A DNA stretch of 64,000 nt, taken from contig CALKXJ010000008.1 of the NCBI GenBank assembly GCA_938003835.1, forward strand, positions 186,001 through 250,000, read 5' to 3'. Shown piece after piece: positions 5,440 to 25,418 of this stretch. Made by a program: the position numbers and the translations under genes. The notes beneath the pieces are model-generated. The model did no database searches and had not been told where the DNA came from. It worked only from the letters and a program-made list of their open reading frames with translations. The DNA is from an uncultured Bryobacteraceae bacterium. GTDB lineage: Bacteria > Acidobacteriota > Terriglobia > Bryobacterales > Bryobacteraceae. The number at the start of each line of letters is the position of its first letter. Within the stretch, counting starts at the first letter, position 1.

Positions 5440-7062
5440 TTACCGGACGTAGCCGAGCGTCCGAAGCAGCTCGAGCATCTTCTGCTCACCCTGCGTATTT
5501 GAGGGAGCCTTGAGCGGGGGAGTCCTCCAGCGATATCCATAAGAGCGCGGGCGGGCGGCTGCCGCCAGAAGGTTGCGGTCGAGCTCGGCAAACAGTTCGA
5601 CCAGCGGCCGACCCGGCATGTCGAGCGAGGGCGGATAACCGGTGAGCCACAGGATGGTGGGCGCGATGTCATAGACGCCGGCTTCGACCGGCGGGGTGCC
5701 GGGACGAGCGCCTCCACCCAGGGCGAACAGAACGCCGGGCGGGGCGAAGTGGTGGTTGAAATAGGCCTCCTTCTCGCGCTCGAAGCCATGGTCGGAGGCG
5801 ATGAGGACCAGCGTCTCCTCACCCGCGCGCTCGATCAGGCGTCGAATCCGCGAAACGACATAGGCGTAGTAACGCGAAACGAGTTTTCCGAAGCGGCGGC
5901 GTTCGGAGGCCGGCGCGGGAACCTCCGGGTAAAGCTCCGAGAAGGGCAAAGCCGGATGCGAGACGACGTCGAGGCCCCGGAAATAGAAGGCGAACACGCC
6001 GTTGCGGGCGCCGTCGTCGAGAAACTGCTCGGCGAGCGCGAAGTGGGTCTCATCCATGGCCAGGCCGTAGCGAAGCTCCCTCAGAACCGTTTCGTCCTGC
6101 GAGTCTGCCCCGGCGAGATCGACGAACTCGAGCAGCCGCTCGAGGGAGAGTTCCTCGGGCGCGATGCGGAATGGGGCCAGGCGGCGTTCCAGATGCGGTG
6201 GGAAGGCGGTGTACGGGTCGATTGTTCGTTCCCAAGTGTCGCCGCCGCGGCTCTTGACAAAGTAGAAATGATCGCTGACGAGACGACCAAAAAGGGGTTG
6301 GGGCGGCCAGGTCGCCCAGAAACCGACGACATCACAGGGCCGCTCCGGACGGCAGACAATTTCCCAGAAGGGCCGGCGGCGCATATCCAAGCTGGAGGTG
6401 GGCCGGAGCTGAGCCAGGCCGAGGCGCAATAGGGCGCGCATCAGGTAGTTGCGTCCGGGCCATGCCGGCACTTCCAAGCGCGCCCGGTCGAGGGCCGGAA
6501 ACTCAAATGTGCGAAAGCTCTTCACTCCGTGCTGCTCTGGAGGCACGCCGGTGGCGATCGTGGTCCAGAGCAGGGGAGAATCGGTCGGCGTGATCGTTTT
6601 CAGGGGGCCCAGGTAGCCCCGGTCGAGCAGCCACTCGAGGTCCTGGTTTCGCTCCTGGTTACGCCAGCGCCGGAGGGTCTCCCAGCACAGGCCGTCGACG
6701 CCGATGAGGAGAAGACGGCCCGGGTGCGGGGCAGGGAAGAGGCTCGGGGCGGGCGGCTCGGCGGGGCGAAGGGTAGGACGCCAGATCAGAGCCGACAGGC
6801 TGGCGACAACGAGCACCGCAATCCACAGCGGTCGAGTTGGCAGCCGTGGTGGCCGGCTCCGGCGGGGAAAACGGTAGCCGACAGCAGCGATCACGACGAG
6901 AAACAGCGCGGAAGACGCCAGCGCACCCGAGAAGAGAAATCCGAAGACCAGCGCCGCGTCCCGGCTGAGCAGCGGCAGCTCGTTCAGAGCGCAGAGCTGC
7001 AAGGCCAGCGGAATCGCAACGAGCAGAGCGAGCCCCGGCGCCAAAAAGGCGACAGCCCCCAT
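5440..7062 (-). CDS. Membrane-anchored alkaline phosphatase/phosphodiesterase superfamily protein
   Basis: 540 residues from the ATG at 7062. Three hydrophobic segments near residues 5-29, 37-62 and 79-94 anchor the protein. The catalytic domain then starts with LLIGVDGLCWETL (metal Asp at residue 123). The nucleophile region TPTDSPLLWTTIATGVPPEQHG, split here only by description, has the Thr typical of nucleotide pyrophosphatase/phosphodiesterase enzymes. The second metal site is in LIASDHGFE. The enzyme class hydrolyses phosphodiesters or transfers phospho-groups outside the cytoplasm. It heads the polysaccharide operon and may modify or release a lipid-linked glycan. The same frame is open far upstream to 8781, but that part lies over the opposite-strand gene and has no homology-like features. 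Confidence 0.8.
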   Translation of the reverse strand: MGAVAFLAPGLALLVAIPLALQLCALNELPLLSRDAALVFGFLFSGALASSALFLVVIAAVGYRFPRRSRPPRLPTRPLWIAVLVVASLSALIWRPTLRPAEPPAPSLFPAPHPGRLLLIGVDGLCWETLRRWRNQERNQDLEWLLDRGYLGPLKTITPTDSPLLWTTIATGVPPEQHGVKSFRTFEFPALDRARLEVPAWPGRNYLMRALLRLGLAQLRPTSSLDMRRRPFWEIVCRPERPCDVVGFWATWPPQPLFGRLVSDHFYFVKSRGGDTWERTIDPYTAFPPHLERRLAPFRIAPEELSLERLLEFVDLAGADSQDETVLRELRYGLAMDETHFALAEQFLDDGARNGVFAFYFRGLDVVSHPALPFSELYPEVPAPASERRRFGKLVSRYYAYVVSRIRRLIERAGEETLVLIASDHGFEREKEAYFNHHFAPPGVLFALGGGARPGTPPVEAGVYDIAPTILWLTGYPPSLDMPGRPLVELFAELDRNLLAAAARPRSYGYRWRTPPLKAPSNTQGEQKMLELLRTLGYVR

Positions 7063-7069
7063 CGCGGGT

Positions 7070-7075
7070 AATGTA
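7070..7075 (-). promoter_or_regulatory. Candidate -10 box of the polysaccharide operon
   Basis: The minus strand reads TACATT, seven bases before the ATG at 7062, and no Shine-Dalgarno sequence lies between. This would place transcription start at about 7063, so the mRNA would be essentially leaderless. No good -35 is visible, so the call is weak. Confidence 0.3.
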
Positions 7076-7095
7076 GCACAGCGAATCGGGCGAAC

Positions 7096-7124
7096 TTGCG
7101 ATTGTCCGCGGTGGTGGGTATAAC
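7096..7124 (+). promoter_or_regulatory. Sigma-70-type promoter for the secreted protein gene at 7135
   Basis: TTGCGA at 7096-7101, a spacer of exactly 17 bases and TATAAC at 7119-7124 form a good housekeeping promoter. Transcription should start near 7131, only four bases before the ATG at 7135. The alternative TTG start codon at 7096 is thus part of the -35 box and not a start. Confidence 0.6.
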
Positions 7125-7134
7125 GGGTGACGTC

Positions 7135-8889
7135 ATGATGGTTTGGATTCTCTGTGCCGTACTCCTGCTTCCGAGGGCGGCCTGGCCCCAATGGCCCACT
7201 GTGGTGATCGAGCGACCGATGCCCGCACCGGACTGGGCCCTGGCCGAGCGCGCTTTGCTCAAGGCGAACGCCGAGGCGGCGGCGGAGTTCGCCGCCAAGT
7301 ACCTTGACGATCGCGGATTCCTGCGGTGCGTGGAGCGTTGGGGCGGAAACGACGGCCCGGACGATGCGATGGAGAATTTTCACAACTGGACGCTGGCCTA
7401 TGCGCTCGGCGCGCCGGAGGAGTTGCTGCGGCTCTTTGAAAAGGCCTGGGAGGGGCATCTCATCCAGTACACGCGCGCCCGGGCCCCGAGCGTCGAGATG
7501 GCGCGCGGAGGAATGTACTACCGCGAATTCATCACCGCTTTCGATTGGGAGCATAACGGCGAGGGGCTGGCGGCGTTTCTCTTCTACGGTCTCGGCCGGC
7601 CGAACGATGCAGCCTACGTTCAGCGGATGCGGCGCTATGCGGGCTTCTACACCGGCGAGGACCCGGCGGCGCCGAACTACGACCCCAGGCACAAGATCAT
7701 CCGCAGCCTTCACAACGGCAGTCGCGGGCCGAAGCTCAGCCCGGCGACGGTCCACGACTGGGGCGGAGAGCCCGTGGCCGGCGAGCCGGAGAGGCTGGAG
7801 CGTTACAGCACGGCGTCGAACATCCGGGGCGATCACCCGCTGAACCTCTGCTCGACCGCGCTGGCGATGAACGCTTACCTGCTCACCGGCGAGGAAAAGT
7901 ACCGCGAGTGGTTGCTCGAGTATGCCGGCGCCTGGCGCGACCGCGTCATGGCCAACGGGGGCAACATCCCGACCAATATCGGGCTCGACGGGCGCATCGG
8001 CGGGGAATGGGAGGGCAAGTGGTACGGCGGCGTCTTCGGCTGGAACTTCTGGCCGCAGGAGAGCGGGCGGAATTACTTCAAGCGGGGGCCGCGGATCGCC
8101 TTCGGCTCGGCGTTTCTGCTCACGGCCGACGAAAGTTACATCGAGCCGTTGCGGCGGCAGATGGAGAACCTGTACCGGGCGGCGAAGGTCGAGGATGGGC
8201 GGGTTCTGCTGCCCAACAAGTATGGCGAGAACGGCTGGTACGGCTACATGCCCAACCGTCATGCGGATCTGGAGCGCGACCTGTACCTGTGGTCGATGCG
8301 AGAGAGCGACCGCCGGCCTGTGGCGCGCGATCCCTGGATCTCCTATCTGGCGGGCGAGAACGCAGGCTACCCGATGAAGGCGCTCCAGGCGGAGCTCGAG
8401 CGCGTGCGGAGAGCCGTGGCCGGCTTGCGGGCGGATTTGAGCACGCCGGACACGCGCGCCTCCGATCACCCGCAACGCTACAACCCGGTGGCGACGGCGG
8501 CTCTGCTCAACCTGACCATCGGGGCGAACGATCCGGGCAGCGTGGGCAACATCCTGCACAGCCGCCTGCGTTATTTCGATCCGGTTCGCCGCCGGGCGGG
8601 GCTGGCCGAGGATGTGGCCGCGCTGGTGGAGAAGATCGGGGCCTCGGAGCTGACCCTCGTGCTGGTGAACACAAACCCGGTCCACGCGCGGGAGCTGGTG
8701 GTGCAAGCAGGCGCCTACGCCGAGCACGAGTTCGAATCGGTGAGCCTCGGTGGGAGTGCACTTGTGGTAGGCGGCCCGCACGTTCGCGTGCGGCTCGAGC
8801 CCGGCGCGGGCGACCGGCTCCTGGTCCGCATGCGGCGCTACGCCCGCCGGCCTACGCTGGCTTTTCCCTGGGACCAGAGCGGGCGATAG
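7135..8889 (+). CDS. Secreted protein of unknown function, probably alpha/alpha-toroid fold
   Basis: 584 residues from the first ATG of a double ATG (7135/7138). The N terminus MMVWILCAVLLLPRAAWPQ is a clear Sec signal peptide. The body is rich in Trp, Tyr and Gly with helical repeats such as NLCSTALAMNAYLLTGEEKYREWL and a segment GGVFGWNFWPQESGRN. This pattern resembles alpha/alpha-barrel glycan-active enzymes (lyases and unsaturated glucuronyl hydrolase-like). The C-terminal 90 residues look like a small beta domain. I do not recognise a named family and see no proven catalytic residues. It is divergent from the polysaccharide operon, with a 72-bp shared promoter region. Confidence 0.75.
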   Translation: MMVWILCAVLLLPRAAWPQWPTVVIERPMPAPDWALAERALLKANAEAAAEFAAKYLDDRGFLRCVERWGGNDGPDDAMENFHNWTLAYALGAPEELLRLFEKAWEGHLIQYTRARAPSVEMARGGMYYREFITAFDWEHNGEGLAAFLFYGLGRPNDAAYVQRMRRYAGFYTGEDPAAPNYDPRHKIIRSLHNGSRGPKLSPATVHDWGGEPVAGEPERLERYSTASNIRGDHPLNLCSTALAMNAYLLTGEEKYREWLLEYAGAWRDRVMANGGNIPTNIGLDGRIGGEWEGKWYGGVFGWNFWPQESGRNYFKRGPRIAFGSAFLLTADESYIEPLRRQMENLYRAAKVEDGRVLLPNKYGENGWYGYMPNRHADLERDLYLWSMRESDRRPVARDPWISYLAGENAGYPMKALQAELERVRRAVAGLRADLSTPDTRASDHPQRYNPVATAALLNLTIGANDPGSVGNILHSRLRYFDPVRRRAGLAEDVAALVEKIGASELTLVLVNTNPVHARELVVQAGAYAEHEFESVSLGGSALVVGGPHVRVRLEPGAGDRLLVRMRRYARRPTLAFPWDQSGR

Positions 8890-9203
8890 TTGGCGCCCGC
8901 TGTTGGCTGCTCTGGGAAGCTGGATGGCCGGACGGACGATTCCGTACGTTAGGGTTTATAGGGCGAGCTGTCCGTAGGTGGCTTTGCGAGCGCGCGCCGG
9001 GCGCTTGTCCCTGTTCCTAACCCAGGCCGCGACGGCGGGCTGGTTCGCAGCAGAACAGACAGATTGACCTGATTGGCCAGCCGCAGAGATCTCTTCGTGC
9101 CGGGACTTGGTGCCCTGGACGCAGTAATAAGATAAATCAATCCTAAAACCTCTTTTTGGCGGCAAGGGGTGCCGTTTTGTTTCGAGAAGGGGAGTGATCT
9201 TCC
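8890..9203 (+). other. 314-bp intergenic region, no gene seen
   Basis: No convincing coding sequence on either strand; short open frames lack start signals and homology. A small hairpin with a CGGCA/TGCCG stem at 9160-9174 is followed by TTTTG and could end transcription weakly. A GGGGAG Shine-Dalgarno-like sequence at 9189-9194 serves the GTG of the following pseudogene, which suggests that gene was once expressed. Confidence 0.5.
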
Positions 9204-11213
9204 GTGTTTCGTCTCATTCAGACCCGTTTCTTCTCCCTAGCGCTCCTGCTCGGCGCGCCTCTCATCGGGCAGAGCAACCAGGCCCGGGTTGCCACATCCG
9301 GGGTGGTCAACGCGGGCGACTACACCCCGGTGCTCGCCCCTAGAATGCACATGTCGGTTTTTGGGCTCCAATCTGGCGGCGACAACGAAGATTGCCGAGA
9401 CGGCGCCCCTGCCGGAGGTTCTCGACGGGGTGAGCGTGGAGGTGGTCCAGGCATGGCGGCTGATGCGCGCGGTTGGTGTTCGTCTCGCCAGGCCAGATCA
9501 ATGCGCAGGTGCCTTACGAGGTGGCGGGCCCGGAGATCGCCGTGCGGGTGCGCACCTCCGCCGGCATCTCCAACGAGGTGCGGTGCAGCCCAGCGCCTTG
9601 CTCAACGAAACCGAGCTGGCCCCGGCGGTGCTCGTGGCCGGCTACCGGGCGGAGGTCCTCCGGTCCGGCCTGGCGCCCTATTGTGCGGGGCTCTACCAGC
9701 TGAACATCCGGTTACCGCGGCACTTGCCGCGGGGCCGGCACACGATTCAGGTCGTTGCCGGGAGCAACGCTTCGCAAGCCGAGGTTTGGATGGCGGGCGG
9801 GGCGCCCGTCTGGCAGAGCGTCAGTTCGGCTTCGGTGGGCGCGAGCGGCGGTACGGTTTCGGGCGCGGGTCTGGAGGTGAGGATTCCGGCGGGCGTTGAG
9901 CTCAGACGCGGAGTTGACGATCTCGACTCCGGCGGTGCAGGTGGCCCCGTCAGAGTCGAGGGTGACCGGCGTTTGGAAGGTGGCGGGACTGCCGCTCGAA
10001 AGTTCGGCGCCGCTGCCGGCGACGGCGCCGCCTGGTTCCGGGGCGGCCTCCAAGGATGAACGCCGCCGCGAGGCGCTGATCATTCCCAAGGATTTCACCG
10101 CCACCGTGTGGGGCATGGCAGGTTTTTCGCCAATCCGATCGCCGGCAGGCAAGTTCACGGTGTGGGTTCCGCGGGGCGACGACCGCGACTTTCGGGCGGC
10201 CGAGGACACCAGACGGATTCTCGAGGAAGCCCTCGCGAAGCTGAAGGCGATTGGCATCGAAACCGACAGCCTCCGGACCGCGCCCATCGACGTCGACTTT
10301 TCGCTTTCTCCCCGGCCGCAGGGAAGCTGTTCCTGCTGGACGACGAGTTTGCCGGGATGACCGAGACCGAGGTCTGGGGCCGGGACGACATGGGCCTGTC
10401 GCTGAACCTCAATCCCTGCCGAACGAACCGGGAGGCGTTCCGCGCCACCGTGGCTTGCGAACTCTTCCACATCTTTTCCAGAGCTATTACGATCCGAAGC
10501 GCTGGTGGACGGGCGCACATCGCTCTACGTTCTGATCGCCAACCCGCACTCCGAGAGCCCGTACAACGGGAGGACCGGCATCGAGCTCGAAGTCACCACC
10601 GAGGCGCTCTGGCCGCGGCTCGACCATGTGTCGGTGGGCCTGGAGATCGGGATCACGACCAGGAACAACATCACCGGGTGGGGCGGTGAGTCAGTGCGGC
10701 CTGTTCACGGTGAACAACAATCTCTTCTCCTTTGGCTTTGGTGACGGCACGCAGCGCATCGTCAAGAAGATCCCGTGGACGGACAACAGCTTCGCCACCG
10801 ATCCGGGCCGCTTTGTGCAGATGAGGGGAAGCGTGCGCCACACCGGCGAGGTCCAGATCCGGGGCACTCTGGACCCGGCCAGAAAGCAGCTCGTGAGCTT
10901 CGTGGCGCGGATCTGGCGCATGACCGAATGTTGCGCTTCGGACCCCCGACCCTTCAGCTCGACGAAGACGGAAAGTGTTCAGGAACTCGAGCTCGGGCCG
11001 GTGCCGTTATCGGAGAGGGAACTGGTGCGGGCAACCGCCCGCCACCGGGGCGGCGAGCTGACCGCCGCCATCCGCAAGGCGAGCGTGACCGAGAGAAGCT
11101 GGACGGGCGACAAGCTGGAGCGGGACGTCACGACGACGCAGGGGCAGTGCGCGCGGGCGCCGGTTCTCCACCTCACCTTGGAACCGGTTGCCCCGGCGAA
11201 CGTGATTCCGTGA
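9204..11213 (+). pseudogene. Multiply frameshifted TIGR03437-domain plus metallopeptidase-like protein
   Basis: A GTG start with a good ribosome site opens a signal peptide (SLALLLGAPLIGQ), then homology-like text runs on but changes frame at least eight times. Recognisable pieces in order: SGVVNAGDYTPV (9290s), FLGSNLAATTKIAETAPLPE after a shift, VFVSPGQINAQVPYEV at 9476, GLAPYCAGLYQLNIRLP at 9660s, VPRGDDRDFRAAEDT at 10170s, FRATVACELFHIF at 10440s, QSYYDPKRWW, DGRTSLYVLIANPHSE, and the C-terminal piece 10626-11213. The first set matches the TIGR03437 repeat described from Solibacter. ACELFH stands where metallopeptidases have AHELFH, so the first zinc His is also lost. The first shift is one extra G in GGG at 9363-9365. 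Adjacent genes have no shifts, so local decay is the simplest reading; a poorly sequenced stretch is the alternative. Confidence 0.8.
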
Positions 11214-11304
11214 GTGCCGCACCGGTGGCGGCGCGCCGCGACCGCTGCGCGCCCGCCCCCGTTCGCTGCCCGTGCGTGTTAGGCTCCCGGTGAAGGAGTC
11301 ATCG

Positions 11305-12609
11305 ATGTCTGTTTTAGCCGTGCGTGGCGCCAGACCTCTCCGGCGCAAGCCCTTTGCCCCGTGGCCGCAGTATTCCGCCGAGGATCTGGAGCGGCTTGTT
11401 CGCGTGGTGGAGAGCCGCAACTGGGGTGGCTTTCCCTTTCCGAACACCTGGGCGCGGGAGTTTGGCGCCCGGTTTGCCGAAATGCATGGGGCGCGCTATG
11501 GGGTGGCGGTAGCCAACGGCACACTCGCCCTGCAAGTGGCGTTGAGAGCCGCCGGGCTGCGGTTCGGCGACGAGGTGATCGTCCCCGCCTACACCTGGGA
11601 AGGGACGGCGGCGGCGGTGCTGTTCGAGGGCGGGGTGCCCGTCTTCGTCGATGTGCGCGAGGACACGATGTGCCTGGATGCGTCGCTCGTTGAGGCGGCG
11701 ATCACCGAGCGGACGCGGGCGATCATTCCGGTGCACCTGGCGATGCGGTTCGCCGACATGGACGCGCTGGCAGCCATTGCGCGGCGGTACAAGCTCGTCA
11801 TCATCGAAGACTGTGCGCACGCGCACGGGGGCCGCTGGCGGGGGCGCGGAGCGGGTTCGATGGGCGACCTGGGTTGTTTCAGCCTCCAGACGAGCAAGCT
11901 CATGACCGCGGGAGAGGGCGGCGTCGTCATTACCAGCGATCCGCGGTATCACGAGGCGGTTCAGGCTTATGTGAATTGCGGGCGAGTGGGCGAGACCGAC
12001 GACTACGGCATACGGCTGGTGGGCGGCAACTTCCGCATCACGGAGCTCCAGGCGGCGCTGCTCATCGGCCAGCTCGAGCGGCTTGGTGAGCAGAACGCGC
12101 TGCGCCGGGAGCGGGCGGCGCGCCTTCGGGCCGGTCTCGAGAAGATTCCGCACGTCGCCCCGCTCGAGCCCGATCCCGACATCACCGAGGAGGTGATGTA
12201 CCAGTACGTGTTCCGTTTCCGGCCGGACCAGACGCCCATCCACCGCGACGTCTTCGTGCGGGCGCTCGAGGCGGAGGGCATCCCCTGTGAGGGCCGTTTC
12301 TACGAATCGGTGCCACGGAGCGACCTGTTTCCGGCGACGGCCGAACAGTTTCCGGCCCTAGCCTTTGGCCGCGCTGAGCCGGTCGATTACCGGAGCGTGC
12401 GGTGCCCGGTAGCCGAAAGGCTTGCCTACGAGGAGACGGTCTGGCTGCCGCACTTCCTGCTGCTCGGAAGCGAGGAGGACATCGACGACATTCTGGCGGC
12501 GATTGAAAAGGTGGCGACGCACCTTGAGGAGCTCGAGGGCGTCGACGCCGGCGTCAAGGGCGTGAGCCGCACGGGGCGGTCGCGGCTGGAACGCGACCGG
12601 GCATGGTAG
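11305..12609 (+). CDS. DegT/DnrJ/EryC1/StrS family PLP aminotransferase
   Basis: 434 residues from the ATG at 11305, which has GAAGGAG 6 bases upstream; an in-frame GTG at 11272 is less likely. Fold type I aminotransferase with GVAVANGTLALQVAL (phosphate loop), PAYTWEGTAAAVLF, IIEDCAHAHGG (Asp that pairs with pyridine N) and the Schiff-base lysine in CFSLQTSKLMTAGEGG (K198). Family members aminate keto-sugars on NDP carriers, or act in aminocyclitol and AHBA synthesis. Here the partner dehydrogenase is not adjacent, so the substrate is open. It follows the pseudogene by 91 bp and converges with the permease gene, 9 bp away. Confidence 0.9.
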   Translation: MSVLAVRGARPLRRKPFAPWPQYSAEDLERLVRVVESRNWGGFPFPNTWAREFGARFAEMHGARYGVAVANGTLALQVALRAAGLRFGDEVIVPAYTWEGTAAAVLFEGGVPVFVDVREDTMCLDASLVEAAITERTRAIIPVHLAMRFADMDALAAIARRYKLVIIEDCAHAHGGRWRGRGAGSMGDLGCFSLQTSKLMTAGEGGVVITSDPRYHEAVQAYVNCGRVGETDDYGIRLVGGNFRITELQAALLIGQLERLGEQNALRRERAARLRAGLEKIPHVAPLEPDPDITEEVMYQYVFRFRPDQTPIHRDVFVRALEAEGIPCEGRFYESVPRSDLFPATAEQFPALAFGRAEPVDYRSVRCPVAERLAYEETVWLPHFLLLGSEEDIDDILAAIEKVATHLEELEGVDAGVKGVSRTGRSRLERDRAW

Positions 12610-12618
12610 CGCGCCGGT

Positions 12619-13971
12619 TCAATCGGGGATCTCGAAACGGACCGCCTCGCGCCGGAAGCCGCGCGTGCGGATAGCGCCCCAGAGCAAGCCAACGCCGAGC
12701 CAGACCGTGCCTGCGAGCTTGGCCACCGGGCGCAGATTCAGCCAGATGGACAGGCAGATGAGGAAGCCGGCGAGCGGCGGGGCGAAATGGCGCAGGCGCT
12801 TGTCAGGGCTTCGCAGCCAGTAGCGCGTGAAGGCGGCCAGATTTACGCCCATGAAGGCGATGAACGCGCCGAAATTGAGCAGCTCGGCGGCGAGCTGGTA
12901 GTTGATGAGGAAGCCGCCGACGAGCGCGATGGCGCCGACGAACAGGACGTTGTTGCGGGGAATGGCGCGGCGCGGCTCGAGCGCGCCGAAGAACCGCTTG
13001 GGGATGGCGTCGTCGCGGCCCATCCCGTAAAGTAGGCGCGCCGCGCCGAGCTGGGCGCCGGAGCCGGAGCCCACTGAAGCCACCAGCAGCGCGAAATTCA
13101 CGATATGCAGGAGCACGGGCCCGCCCACGCGGCCGGCGACGTGGACGTAAGCGGTGTCGACATCCGGGAAGTTGGAGTAGTCCGGCCAGACAAGCTGCGC
13201 CAGGTAGACCTCAAGGCTGGCCAGGATGCCCGTGATCAGGCAGGTGAGCACGGTGGCGCGGAGCACGTTGCGCTGCGGGGCCTTCACTTCTTCCGAGAGC
13301 GTGGAGATGCCGTCGAAGCCGATGTAGGTCAGTACGGCGATCGAGGTGCCGGTGAGCACGTGGCTCCACGCAAAGGTTTCGGGGTTGTAGAGAGGCCGGG
13401 TGAAGTCGGCCGACCCGAGGGCGGGCCCGGCTGCCAGGTGCCGGATGGCGTAAACGAAGAAAAGGATGATAACCAGGCCGAGGCCGGCGGCCAGGGCTTC
13501 GTTGGTGCGCGCCGAGGCCTTGATGCCGCGCAGGTTCAAGCCGGTGAAGAGCGAGGCGAAGAAGACCACCCAGAAGGCGTAAGGAAGCTCCGGCGCGATG
13601 TTGAGTGCGGCCTTGCTGCACCAGATGGTGCACAGCACCGGGTTGACGATGTAGTCGAGCGCCATGCTCCAACCGGTGAGATAGCCCAGGGCGGTGTGAA
13701 GCTCCCGGCCCACGTACGTGTAGGCCGAGCCGGCGGCCGGATAGGCGCGCGCCATGCGCCCGTAGCTGGCGGCGGTGAACAGCATGCCGCACATGGCGAT
13801 GAGGATGGTGGTCGCGACGTGGCCGCGCGCCTCCTGGGCCACCACGCCGAACAGCGGCATCGGAGCGGTGGGCTGGATCAGAACGATCCCGTAGAAGACC
13901 AGATCCCAGAGTGAAAGTTCGCGCCGCAGCCGGGTGGCCGGGGCGGCGGCCGGCGATTGCGGCGGCGTCAT
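12619..13971 (-). CDS. APC superfamily amino acid permease
   Basis: 450 residues with about 12 hydrophobic segments. The first helix region LSLWDLVFYGIVLIQPTAP and the SAYTYVGRELHTALGYLTGW segment are characteristic of amino acid-polyamine-organocation permeases, as is TYIGFDGISTLSEEVKAPQRN in the middle. It would import an amino acid or related amine by proton or sodium symport through the inner membrane. The gene lies 37 bp downstream of the GH3 gene on the same strand and could be cotranscribed. Substrate is not predictable. Confidence 0.88.
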   Translation of the reverse strand: MTPPQSPAAAPATRLRRELSLWDLVFYGIVLIQPTAPMPLFGVVAQEARGHVATTILIAMCGMLFTAASYGRMARAYPAAGSAYTYVGRELHTALGYLTGWSMALDYIVNPVLCTIWCSKAALNIAPELPYAFWVVFFASLFTGLNLRGIKASARTNEALAAGLGLVIILFFVYAIRHLAAGPALGSADFTRPLYNPETFAWSHVLTGTSIAVLTYIGFDGISTLSEEVKAPQRNVLRATVLTCLITGILASLEVYLAQLVWPDYSNFPDVDTAYVHVAGRVGGPVLLHIVNFALLVASVGSGSGAQLGAARLLYGMGRDDAIPKRFFGALEPRRAIPRNNVLFVGAIALVGGFLINYQLAAELLNFGAFIAFMGVNLAAFTRYWLRSPDKRLRHFAPPLAGFLICLSIWLNLRPVAKLAGTVWLGVGLLWGAIRTRGFRREAVRFEIPD

Positions 13972-14008: not shown

Positions 14009-16165
14009 TCACGGCACCACCTCGAAGCTCCCGCGGAGGTGAATCTTCTCGGAGGAGCTGCCGACCATCACCTCGAACAGCCCAGGTTCGACGACGGGTT
14101 CCAGGTGCTCGTTGAGCAGAGAGAGGTGTTCCGGCGCCAGCCGGAAGCGCATGGTGCGGCTCTCGCCGGGCTTGAGCCAGACCTTCTCGAAGCCCTTCAG
14201 CTCCTTGACCGGTGTCGAGACCGAGCTGATGACATCGTCCAGGTAGAGCTGCACCGCCTCGGCGCCCTCGCGTGGGCCGGTGTTGGTGACGTCGACGCTC
14301 ACCTCGACCTCCCCGGCCGGCCGGATCTGTTTCGGGCTGATGTGGAGGTTGGCATAGGCGAAGGTGGTGTAGCTCAACCCGTGCCCGAACTCAAACAGCG
14401 GCGTGGCCGGCATGTCGACATAGTGGCTCCGGCTCATCCAATAGGCCTTGGAGGGCCGGTAGTTGTAGTAGACCGGCAACTGGCCGGAGTGGCGAGGTAC
14501 GGTGACCGGGAGGCGCCCGCTCGGATTGACGTCGCCGAACAGGACGTCAGCGACGGCGTGGCCGCCCTGCTCGCCGGGGAGCCAGGCCTCGACGATTGCC
14601 GGCACGTGTTCGGCGATCCAGCGGACGGCGAGCGGCCGGCCGTTCACCAGCACGACGACGGTGGGCGTGCCGGTGGCGTGCACGGCGCGGACGAGCTCCT
14701 CTTGCATGCCGGTCAGATCGAGCGAGGCGAGGTCCTTGCCCTCGCCGTTGGTGCCGTCGGGAGCGCGGCGCTCGTTCTCACCGACCACGACGATGGCGAC
14801 GTCGGCGGCGCGGGCAGCTTCGCGCGCTTTCCCGATCTCGTCGAGGCCGGAGCCGATGACGTTGCACCCCTTGACGTAGCTGACCCGGGTTGACGGCGAG
14901 ACCTTGGCGCGGATGCCTTCGAGGATCGTCACCACCTCCTGGAGGATGGTGCGGGACACATAATCGCCGAGCAGGTTGCGCTCGTGAGCGGCATTGGGCC
15001 CGATGACGGCGATCGAGGCGAGATTCTTGCGCAGGGGCAGGAGGTTGCCCTGGTTCTTGAGCAGGACGATCCCCTCGCGGGCGGCCTCGAGCGCCAGGGC
15101 GCGGTGCGCGGCGCGGGGGACGCCGTCGACGGCACGGGCCGGGTCGACATACGGCCTCTCGAAGAGGCCCAGGCGGAATTTCTGGCGAAGGATGCGGCGC
15201 ACGGCGCGGTCGATGTCGGCCATCGAGACACGCCCCTCGCGAACGCTGTCGATCAGGTCCCGCATGTAGCCGGACTCGAAAGAGATTCCCACGTCCAGAC
15301 CCGCCCGGAGGGCGATCTGGCCCGCCTGTTTCTGGTCGGCGGCGACGCGCTCATAGACGAGCGTGCCGATGCCGCCACCCTCGCCGAGCACGAGACCCTG
15401 GAAATTGAGCTCGCCGCGGAGAATGTCCGTGAGGATCTTCTTCGAGGCGTGGGCGGGGATGCCGTCGATGGCGGGATAAGTGGCCATGACGCCGAGCGCG
15501 CCCGCCTTCCGGATCCCGGCGACCCAGGGAGGCAGGAAGATTTCGCGAAGCATGCGCTCGGAGATCTCCATCGCGCCCCGCTCGATGCCGCTCACCGGCT
15601 GGCTCTGGCCGGGGTAGTGGCAGAGACCGGCGATCGCCTTGTTCGGGGCCGAGACGTCGTCACCCTGGACGCCGCGCACAATCGCCTCGGCGAAGCGGGC
15701 GCACAGATACGGATCTTCGCTGTAGGCCTCCTCGTTGCGGCCCAGGCGCGGGTCGCGGATCGGCTCGACGACCAGCGTGAAGAGCTGGTGGATGCCCACG
15801 ATGCGGGCCTCGGCGGCGACGGCAGCGTAAATACGCTCGAGGAGCGCCGGGTTGAAGGTGCTGCCCAGGGACGGGCCTTCGGGGAAGATCGTCCCGCCAG
15901 AGCACATCAGGCCGTGCGTGCCTTCCTCGGTTTGGAGCAGGGGGATCTTCAGGCGGGTCTTCTCGAGGGCGATCCGCTGAAGTTCGTTGAAGTATTCGGC
16001 CTGCTCGCGCGGGCCTCCGGGCAGGATGTTGTCGGCGAGGGTGAAGAAGCCGCCGGCGGGCCCGATGCCTTCGACGAAGGCGCCCGCGGCGAAGCGGCGG
16101 CAGTTTTCGCGCTTGGAGGGGACATCGCGGCCGAGCTCGGCCAGATACACGCACGGCATGTTCAT
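14009..16165 (-). CDS. Glycoside hydrolase family 3 protein, main part (cut from its signal peptide by a TAG)
   Basis: 718 residues: GH3 N-terminal barrel (about 1-300), GH3 C-terminal alpha/beta sandwich (about 330-570) and a fibronectin III-like domain (about 600-705, SVDVTNTGPREGAEAVQLYLDD). Family enzymes are exo-acting beta-glucosidases or xylosidases. Two active-site regions are unusual: the lysine-His pair reads LCHYPGQ (Cys in place of Lys) and the nucleophile region reads LVLGEGGGIG with Glu262 where most members have Ser-Asp-Trp. The first ATG follows directly after an in-frame TAG at 16166-16168; the expected N-terminal helix RVEDLLARMTLEEKVG and a signal peptide lie upstream in the same frame. 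As it stands this frame would give a cytoplasmic product if restarted, or none. Confidence 0.8.
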   Translation of the reverse strand: MNMPCVYLAELGRDVPSKRENCRRFAAGAFVEGIGPAGGFFTLADNILPGGPREQAEYFNELQRIALEKTRLKIPLLQTEEGTHGLMCSGGTIFPEGPSLGSTFNPALLERIYAAVAAEARIVGIHQLFTLVVEPIRDPRLGRNEEAYSEDPYLCARFAEAIVRGVQGDDVSAPNKAIAGLCHYPGQSQPVSGIERGAMEISERMLREIFLPPWVAGIRKAGALGVMATYPAIDGIPAHASKKILTDILRGELNFQGLVLGEGGGIGTLVYERVAADQKQAGQIALRAGLDVGISFESGYMRDLIDSVREGRVSMADIDRAVRRILRQKFRLGLFERPYVDPARAVDGVPRAAHRALALEAAREGIVLLKNQGNLLPLRKNLASIAVIGPNAAHERNLLGDYVSRTILQEVVTILEGIRAKVSPSTRVSYVKGCNVIGSGLDEIGKAREAARAADVAIVVVGENERRAPDGTNGEGKDLASLDLTGMQEELVRAVHATGTPTVVVLVNGRPLAVRWIAEHVPAIVEAWLPGEQGGHAVADVLFGDVNPSGRLPVTVPRHSGQLPVYYNYRPSKAYWMSRSHYVDMPATPLFEFGHGLSYTTFAYANLHISPKQIRPAGEVEVSVDVTNTGPREGAEAVQLYLDDVISSVSTPVKELKGFEKVWLKPGESRTMRFRLAPEHLSLLNEHLEPVVEPGLFEVMVGSSSEKIHLRGSFEVVP

Positions 16166-16327
16166 CTAGCCGACTTTTTCTTCGAGCGTCATGCGCGCCA
16201 GCAGGTCTTCGACGCGCCGCTCGAGCGGCTGTGCGGGATCAAGGGAGAGGGCGCGCTCCTGGCCGACGATCGCGGGCAGGGCCAAGGCGAGCATGAGGGA
16301 GAAGAAGACGACCCGAAATTCCCGCAA
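16166..16327 (-). pseudogene. Detached 5' end of the GH3 gene (signal peptide plus first helix, ending in TAG)
   Basis: On the minus strand a TTG at 16325-16327, with GGAGG ten bases upstream, opens 53 codons. They encode a Sec signal peptide (FRVVFFSLMLALALPAIVG) and then RVEDLLARMTLEEKVG, the conserved N terminus of secreted GH3 enzymes. The next codon is TAG at 16166-16168 and the frame goes on as MNMPCVYL. In homologous proteins the text usually runs EKVGQMN, so one C-to-T change of a CAG codon explains the stop. Sequencing error, a true nonsense mutation, or restart at the immediately adjacent ATG are all possible. Confidence 0.75.
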
Positions 16328-20257: not shown

Positions 20258-21784
<1,527 letters not shown>

Positions 21785-21991
21785 AGAGAACGTGGGTGGA
21801 GCCACCTCGGAGCCCGGCCTGCCGGGCCGGTGGCAGCCGTTCCACTCCATTCGTCCGGAGCTCTCTTCTCGAAGGTTCATGCGACAAGCCGAAGGCCGCC
21901 TGCCGGGTGCGGGCGGCCGCGTCCAACCGGCCTCGAACCGCTCGTTCGAAGCTGAGCGCCGGAGGCGCCGGGCGCCGACGGCGGGGCAAAT

Positions 21992-22067
21992 GGGGCTGTA
22001 GCTCAGCTGGGAGAGCGCCTGATTTGCAATCAGGAGGTCGTCGGTTCGATTCCGATCAGCTCCACCA
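21992..22067 (+). tRNA. tRNA-Ala (anticodon TGC)
   Basis: The acceptor GGGGCTG pairs with CAGCTCC, the anticodon loop is TTTGCAA with TGC, the T-arm is GGTTCGATTCC, and CCA is encoded. It lies in the spacer 212 bases after 16S. Confidence 0.97.
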
Positions 22068-22116
22068 GCCTGCCACCCCGGGCGGTGGGACCGGCGGCCG
22101 GAAAAGGGTGCAGGCC

Positions 22117-22193
<77 letters not shown>

Positions 22194-22285
22194 AAGGCGC
22201 TGGGGCAAGGGCCAGCGATCAGCGGCCGGCTTTCCGGGCCAGGAGGCGAGAGCCGGGCGCTGGTGGCTGGAAGGCCGCCGGCGGA

Positions 22286-22297
22286 GATCTTTGACAA
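22286..22297 (+). promoter_or_regulatory. boxA antitermination site, 23S leader
   Basis: A second exact copy of GATCTTTGACAA, 71 bases before the 23S processing stem begins its mature end. The surrounding GACAACTGAATA text is common in bacterial spacers at this place. Confidence 0.7.
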
Positions 22298-22346
22298 CTG
22301 AATATTGACGGGCAACAGCAAGTTGCCGTAGCGCGAACGGACGTGT

Positions 22347-22367
22347 TGTGTCCGGAGTGAATTTTAT

Positions 22368-22375
<8 letters not shown>
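22347..22375 (+). repeat. 23S processing stem, 5' arm
   Basis: The 29 bases here are complementary to 25242-25270 with one mismatch (G at 22355 against T-side), including an unbroken stretch of 19 pairs. This is the long helix that RNase III cuts to release pre-23S rRNA. Confidence 0.85.
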
Positions 22376-25241
<2,866 letters not shown>

Positions 25242-25252
<11 letters not shown>

Positions 25253-25270
25253 AAATTCACTACGGACACA
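25242..25270 (+). repeat. 23S processing stem, 3' arm
   Basis: Reverse complement of 22347-22375 with one mismatch; see the 5' arm. Its outer part extends into the 23S-5S spacer. Confidence 0.85.
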
Positions 25271-25300
25271 GCCTCCAGGCGCCGTCAATATTCAGCAAGT

Positions 25301-25418
<118 letters not shown>

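Follow-up and report, generated by a model that had tools for sequence, protein, structure and literature searches.

The window, a 64,000-nucleotide stretch of DNA from an uncultured Bryobacteraceae bacterium, carries on its minus strand a GH3-type gene whose frame is broken once, by a TAG at codon 54. The features of the locus are as follows.

14009-16327, minus strand: frame of the GH3-type gene, TTG start to TGA stop, broken at codon 54 (translation, Pfam)
16166-16327, minus strand: 53-codon leader and then the stop, comprising a signal-peptide-like stretch (by eye) together with the barrel domain's first two helices (structure model)
16166-16168, minus strand: in-frame TAG, codon 54, at a position occupied by Gln in relatives (translation and alignments)
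16163-16165, minus strand: ATG abutting the TAG with zero gap, a codon of the family (comparison at the column in 37 relatives)
15380-15382, minus strand: codon 316, Glu where GH3 canonically has its nucleophile Asp (alignments; position = 16327 - 3*315)
14009-16165, minus strand: 718-codon open frame after the TAG, with the rest of Glyco_hydro_3 and the Glyco_hydro_3_C and Fn3-like domains (Pfam)
12619-13971, minus strand: amino acid permease gene, on the same strand as the GH3 gene and 37 bases downstream of it

From the TTG at 16325-16327, which has a GGAGG upstream, the minus-strand frame reads LREFRVVFFSLMLALALPAIVGQERALSLDPAQPLERRVEDLLARMTLEEKVG, a stop and then MNMPCVYL..., and continues to the TGA at 14009-14011. 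The hydrophobic leader runs to RMTLEEKVG, directly before the TAG. With the TAG read as a residue, the Pfam Glyco_hydro_3 match covers residues 47-381, starting at profile position 1 and crossing residue 54; in the part after the stop alone this match begins at profile position 41, and a Pfam search with the 53-residue leader alone gives no match. All three Pfam domains score above cut-off in the 718 codons after the TAG. By sequence family the protein belongs to GH3, with 185.8 bits for PF00933 and 216.3 bits for PF01915 (gathering scores 27 and 31), and it is the sole match to the GH3 query in its own genome at E 0.001. The initial annotation described an in-frame TAG, with an ATG immediately behind it, that splits a secreted GH3; its coordinates are exact, and one homologous unit spans the stop.

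A permease 77% identical to this one likewise sits behind the GH3 gene at L156 and L159, two of 34 loci, most of which have short flanks; a 31-residue permease match lies at the end of L175. Further along the window, an rRNA operon (16S, 23S, 5S) occupies 20258-25418, with tRNA-Ala (TGC) followed by tRNA-Ile (GAT) in its spacer; the more usual order of the spacer tRNAs in rRNA operons is Ile-Ala.

Related loci were taken from 61 genomes including the window's own, from 237 family genomes and from named genomes, and the best named matches include Bryobacteraceae and other Acidobacteriota MAGs as well as MAGs labelled otherwise. We checked 37 loci base by base, namely 29 from the family-genome search (window excluded) and 8 of the 80 named-genome loci. 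At the codon-54 column these relatives have CAG (22) or CAA (9), hence Gln in 31, a gap with Gln just after it (5) or GAA for Glu (1), and none of the 37 has a stop there in the aligned frame. A separate count over 43 loci, partly overlapping the 37, gives 40 Gln, 1 Glu and 2 gaps, and in alignment A1 all 18 rows other than the window's keep Q54. Relatives read EKVGQMN or near variants at the site, in agreement with the earlier proposal that EKVGQMN is the family text and that a single CAG-to-TAG change suffices; the comparison of related genomes at this site, likewise suggested in the initial annotation, thus returns a Gln column free of stops. Because all 37 relatives align through the site, the reading of the TAG as an interruption is not a matter of chance. 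As expected of the disabling lesion of a pseudogene, the stop is absent from the relatives, and the conservation expected of a programmed readthrough stop is not found among them (0 of 37).

The same alignments bear on the ATG behind the stop. In each of the 37 relatives the open frame extends upstream and contains, no fewer than 34 codons ahead of the column, a codon that could serve as the start, so that no relative needs one at MNMPC; that homologues might all start there had been raised beforehand, and this did not occur. Next to the column, 12 relatives have ATG, 20 a codon for Ile, Leu or Trp and 5 a gap, which identifies the adjacent ATG as inherited protein sequence. No Shine-Dalgarno-like text precedes it by eye, in contrast to the GGAGG at the TTG. 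In the AlphaFold2 model (mean pLDDT 86.5, pTM 0.90), the stop falls on the last residue of helix 48-54, and a restart would drop the leader together with helices 35-45 and 48-54, which are confidently modelled (block mean pLDDT 93, 96 and 91). A restart product would nevertheless have 718 open codons, and its Pfam score of 181.5 bits is only about 4 bits below that of the whole frame, so its fold might persist; stop-ATG adjacency also occurs in the same genome at a junction that reads, by eye, as nuoJ-nuoK. Taken together, it is very unlikely that ribosomes restart at this ATG to yield a cytosolic GH3 enzyme that is put to use, and the restart suggested in the initial annotation is not borne out as a purposeful one.

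The frame shows no sign of long decay. Its aligned part forms one continuous alignment, with no second stop and no frameshift. For the rate comparison, the 78% identical locus L155 served as the intact yardstick against five outgroups; the tree leaves the window's nearest relative unsettled (support 0.135), and L155 is a yardstick rather than a proven sister. Unique amino acid changes in the window and in L155 number 41 and 61, 61 and 49, 55 and 57, 42 and 59, and 64 and 43 with the successive outgroups, while the window's unique DNA changes fall mostly in third positions (41, 35 and 139 by codon position, first outgroup). Neither relaxed selection nor further lesions, as a pseudogene would show, are seen in the frame, and a very young lesion would look alike; no genome of the same genus is present among the 61 searched. 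The lack of further decay would make the change young or a strain-level variant, and on these sequence comparisons the lesion is either young on the window's branch or false. The latter case, in which the TAG is a minor allele or was introduced in sequencing or assembly and the gene is intact in the living organism, accords with a one-base difference in a gene that is otherwise intact and evolving normally, and with a draft genome of 38 contigs. It is in our view rather unlikely: there is no positive sign of error, and other lesions of this genome, described below, resemble ordinary decay with frame loss, beyond what substitution errors alone would give.

The initial annotation had also considered readthrough by a suppressor tRNA. 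Among the 43 tRNA matches of the draft, an incomplete set, none has a CTA anticodon, so this claim lacks support; ARAGORN typed 42 of them, and the remaining one is tRNA-Trp by eye from the cmscan alignment. A tRNA-arm pattern search of the genome found nothing beyond these 43, and the window itself holds only tRNA-Ala TGC and tRNA-Ile GAT, neither of them a suppressor. A tRNA-Leu with anticodon tag (L149) was rejected as a suppressor, as it reads CUA and not UAG. No tRNA for Tyr, Thr (GGT, TGT) or Gly (TCC) turned up in the draft, although its completeness is stated as 100; the missing ones may share a presumed assembly gap close to tRNA-Trp, where contig C36 begins. A pyrrolysine system was rejected, the best PylS match reaching 24.6 bits where the cut-off is 178.15, and so was a stimulating RNA element at the stop, where folding is no better than in shuffled sequences (z-scores of -0.11 after the stop and -0.84 across it). 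RF1 is intact, its prfA match being free of stops and scoring 533.5 bits (cut-off 423.25). TAG terminates 199 of 841 long frames in the 2.42 Mb surveyed, and an internal stop is absent from all 66 listed matches of one family, that of the outer-membrane barrel gene described below (65 of 123 candidates were scored, and the known broken copy is not listed). TAG is therefore a working stop in this organism, and global recoding of TAG was rejected on the same three observations.

The GH3 gene is not the only interrupted gene of its genome. A coding-signal survey, run first on 864 kb and then on 2,416,406 of 5,001,867 bases, lists 192 stops between coding-like stretches (96 TGA, 66 TAG, 30 TAA). 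The survey lists are incomplete, since the GH3 stop passed the 864-kb filters yet is absent from the 2.4-Mb lists. For checking, 36 of the 192 were chosen by eye (20 TAG, 14 TGA, 2 TAA); the other 156, mostly gene-gene junctions, were set aside by eye and include C7:123361 and C8:7764, the second TAGs of genes named below. A Pfam scan that took in 20 of the 36 (11 TAG, 9 TGA and no TAA) found a domain spanning the stop in 5 of 11 TAG cases and 0 of 9 TGA cases, and the S9 peptidase, the TrkA-type gene and the second TAGs of the sulfatase and GH36 genes rest on alignment with relatives. Altogether, the 2.42 Mb hold ten homology-supported in-frame TAGs in seven genes including GH3. The other nine lie in six genes: a sulfatase, a GH36 melibiase-type gene and an outer-membrane barrel gene (two each), and a Mur ligase-like, an S9 peptidase and a TrkA-type gene. 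Three of the loci are as follows.

C7:122434-123828 (L308): sulfatase frame with stops at C7:123037 and 123361 and no frameshift; 11 compared relatives free of stops
C8, about 6025-8222 (L205): GH36 melibiase-type gene that holds two TAGs and, in a different frame, a probable TGA, with loss of frame as the result
C16, about 7779-13603 (L288): cluster of interrupted genes with TAGs, namely Mur ligase-like, outer-membrane barrel and S8-like

The strangest of these is the sulfatase, whose two TAG columns hold Tyr in 9 and 10 of the 11 relatives and Phe in the rest. The TAG column is Gln in the S9 peptidase and His in the TrkA-type gene, with Tyr in the nearest relative of the latter, and relatives of the Mur ligase-like gene align too loosely at the TAG to name a residue. 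In the barrel gene the two TAGs belong to different frames, and in the GH36 gene the TAGs and the probable TGA are likewise spread over two frames; both genes are therefore frame-broken. The TGA of the GH36 gene (C8:6565) and a TAG in the S8-like gene (C16:13061), which seems frame-broken, are seen by eye only. Unique amino acids in the window's genome and the nearest relative number 32 and 27, 25 and 23, and 24 and 28 for TrkA, and show a mild excess for the sulfatase (42 and 31, 43 and 33, 49 and 29) and for S9 (81 and 58, 80 and 65, 83 and 61).

From codon usage, the TAG share expected for random nonsense changes is 0.58, at which ten TAGs at ten sites has P=0.004 and seven of seven genes P=0.02 if sites are independent and unselected, neither of which holds. 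Rows listed for other genomes under the same queries, not individually checked, hold internal stops as 14 TGA, 3 TAG and 3 TAA, and beside them a pattern of TAG alone seems less ordinary. The pattern is still no more than suggestive, since the candidates were chosen by eye and sites that share a gene are not independent. It is one argument for a useful level of UAG decoding, by which some full-length enzyme would be exported and several genes would tolerate an in-frame TAG, and it is joined by the Gln columns of GH3 and S9, the Tyr columns of the sulfatase, the His column of TrkA, and the missing tRNA-Tyr, an altered copy of which could hide in the gap. In-frame TAGs at CAG columns under selection are also reported in bacteria, in the portion of PMC7918605 available to us. 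The absence of CTA among the 43 tRNAs, the PylS score, the intact RF1, the many frames ending in TAG and the uninterrupted outer-membrane matches all point the other way, as do the frame loss of the GH36 and barrel genes and the choice by eye of candidates of which the Pfam scan took in TAG and TGA but no TAA; we judge such decoding distinctly unlikely. A specific form of it, in which a near-cognate or changed tRNA, for example a tRNA-Tyr in the gap, inserts Gln or Tyr while several genes keep their TAGs, is very unlikely; the genes meant are GH3, the sulfatase with its two Tyr-column TAGs, the S9 peptidase and the TrkA-type gene, in a genome where about one quarter of long genes end in TAG.

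A plain gene-breaking change or a sequence error, rather than special decoding, is the most likely explanation, and a recent single nonsense substitution of a conserved Gln codon, confined to one lineage, in a secreted GH3-type gene is the probable one. The further interrupted genes of the genome, at least two of them also frame-broken, support the substitution. Against it stand the lack of relaxed selection, which would be expected in a longer-dead gene, and, in the surveyed half of the genome, homology-supported splits that are all TAG, several at Gln, Tyr or His columns, while the unchecked rows of other genomes hold mostly TGA; the sulfatase, S9 peptidase and TrkA-type genes, with isolated stops in continuous frames, would also fit sequence error. 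Under a nonsense substitution, one recent change in a single lineage would have turned the conserved Gln codon into TAG. Ribosomes would terminate at codon 53, leaving the exported enzyme absent or limited to the small amount that background misreading of UAG allows. The adjacent ATG would be a leftover protein codon, any restart product being unexported and short of two helices. As found, the GH3 case matters little, being another interrupted gene in a draft genome. Were the TAG-only pattern shown to be decoded, partial amber tolerance beside a working RF1 and many genuine TAG stops would represent an intermediate toward codon reassignment.

A second feature of the protein concerns its active site. 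GH3 enzymes use an Asp nucleophile in the barrel domain, according to the accessible part of PMC6277957. At the equivalent position, residue 316, which directly follows strand 312-315 of the AlphaFold2 model, the window has Glu, shared by 30 of 30 distinct relatives whose identity is 55% or higher; below that level 35 of 35 have Asp, the equivalence of residue 316 and the Asp column resting on local alignments and on alignment to 7zb3. The Asp nucleophile is thus lacking, and the window protein is a GH3 by sequence, with catalysis unproven. The Glu clade includes, for example, L155-L176, L031-L037 and L042. A Cys-His pair in the window is Cys-His or Thr-Asp in close relatives and mostly Lys-His in distant ones. 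Close relatives keep a GE..D motif of the sandwich domain, whose Glu is the putative acid/base. A literature search on GH3 enzymes with a Glu nucleophile found nothing fitting among the papers listed, and a GH3 clade with Glu fixed at the nucleophile column poses a testable question of enzyme mechanism.

By sequence, the nearest solved structures are 7zb3 and 8c7f, named beta-xylosidase and xylosidase, which share with the window protein both GH3 domains and the Fn3-like domain. The window gene differs from this three-domain type in its TAG, in Glu rather than Asp at the nucleophile column and in Cys-His in place of the mostly Lys-His of distant relatives. With pyrrolysine and natural amber-suppressor systems it shares the in-frame TAG, but here PylS is under cut-off, no CTA tRNA was found and TAG is a frequent real stop. 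A literature search on pseudogenes in acidobacterial MAGs found nothing fitting. In-frame stops of this kind are already known, whichever reading holds: in the part of their paper at hand, Belinky and colleagues describe them as widespread in bacterial genes and argue that many are not pseudogenes, with a TAG/CAG sulfotransferase of Paenibacillus among the examples (PMC7918605). As far as that text goes, the Paenibacillus TAG is common to several genomes and appears to revert, whereas the GH3 TAG is known from one genome; the two are alike in having a single TAG at a CAG column with coding signal on both sides.
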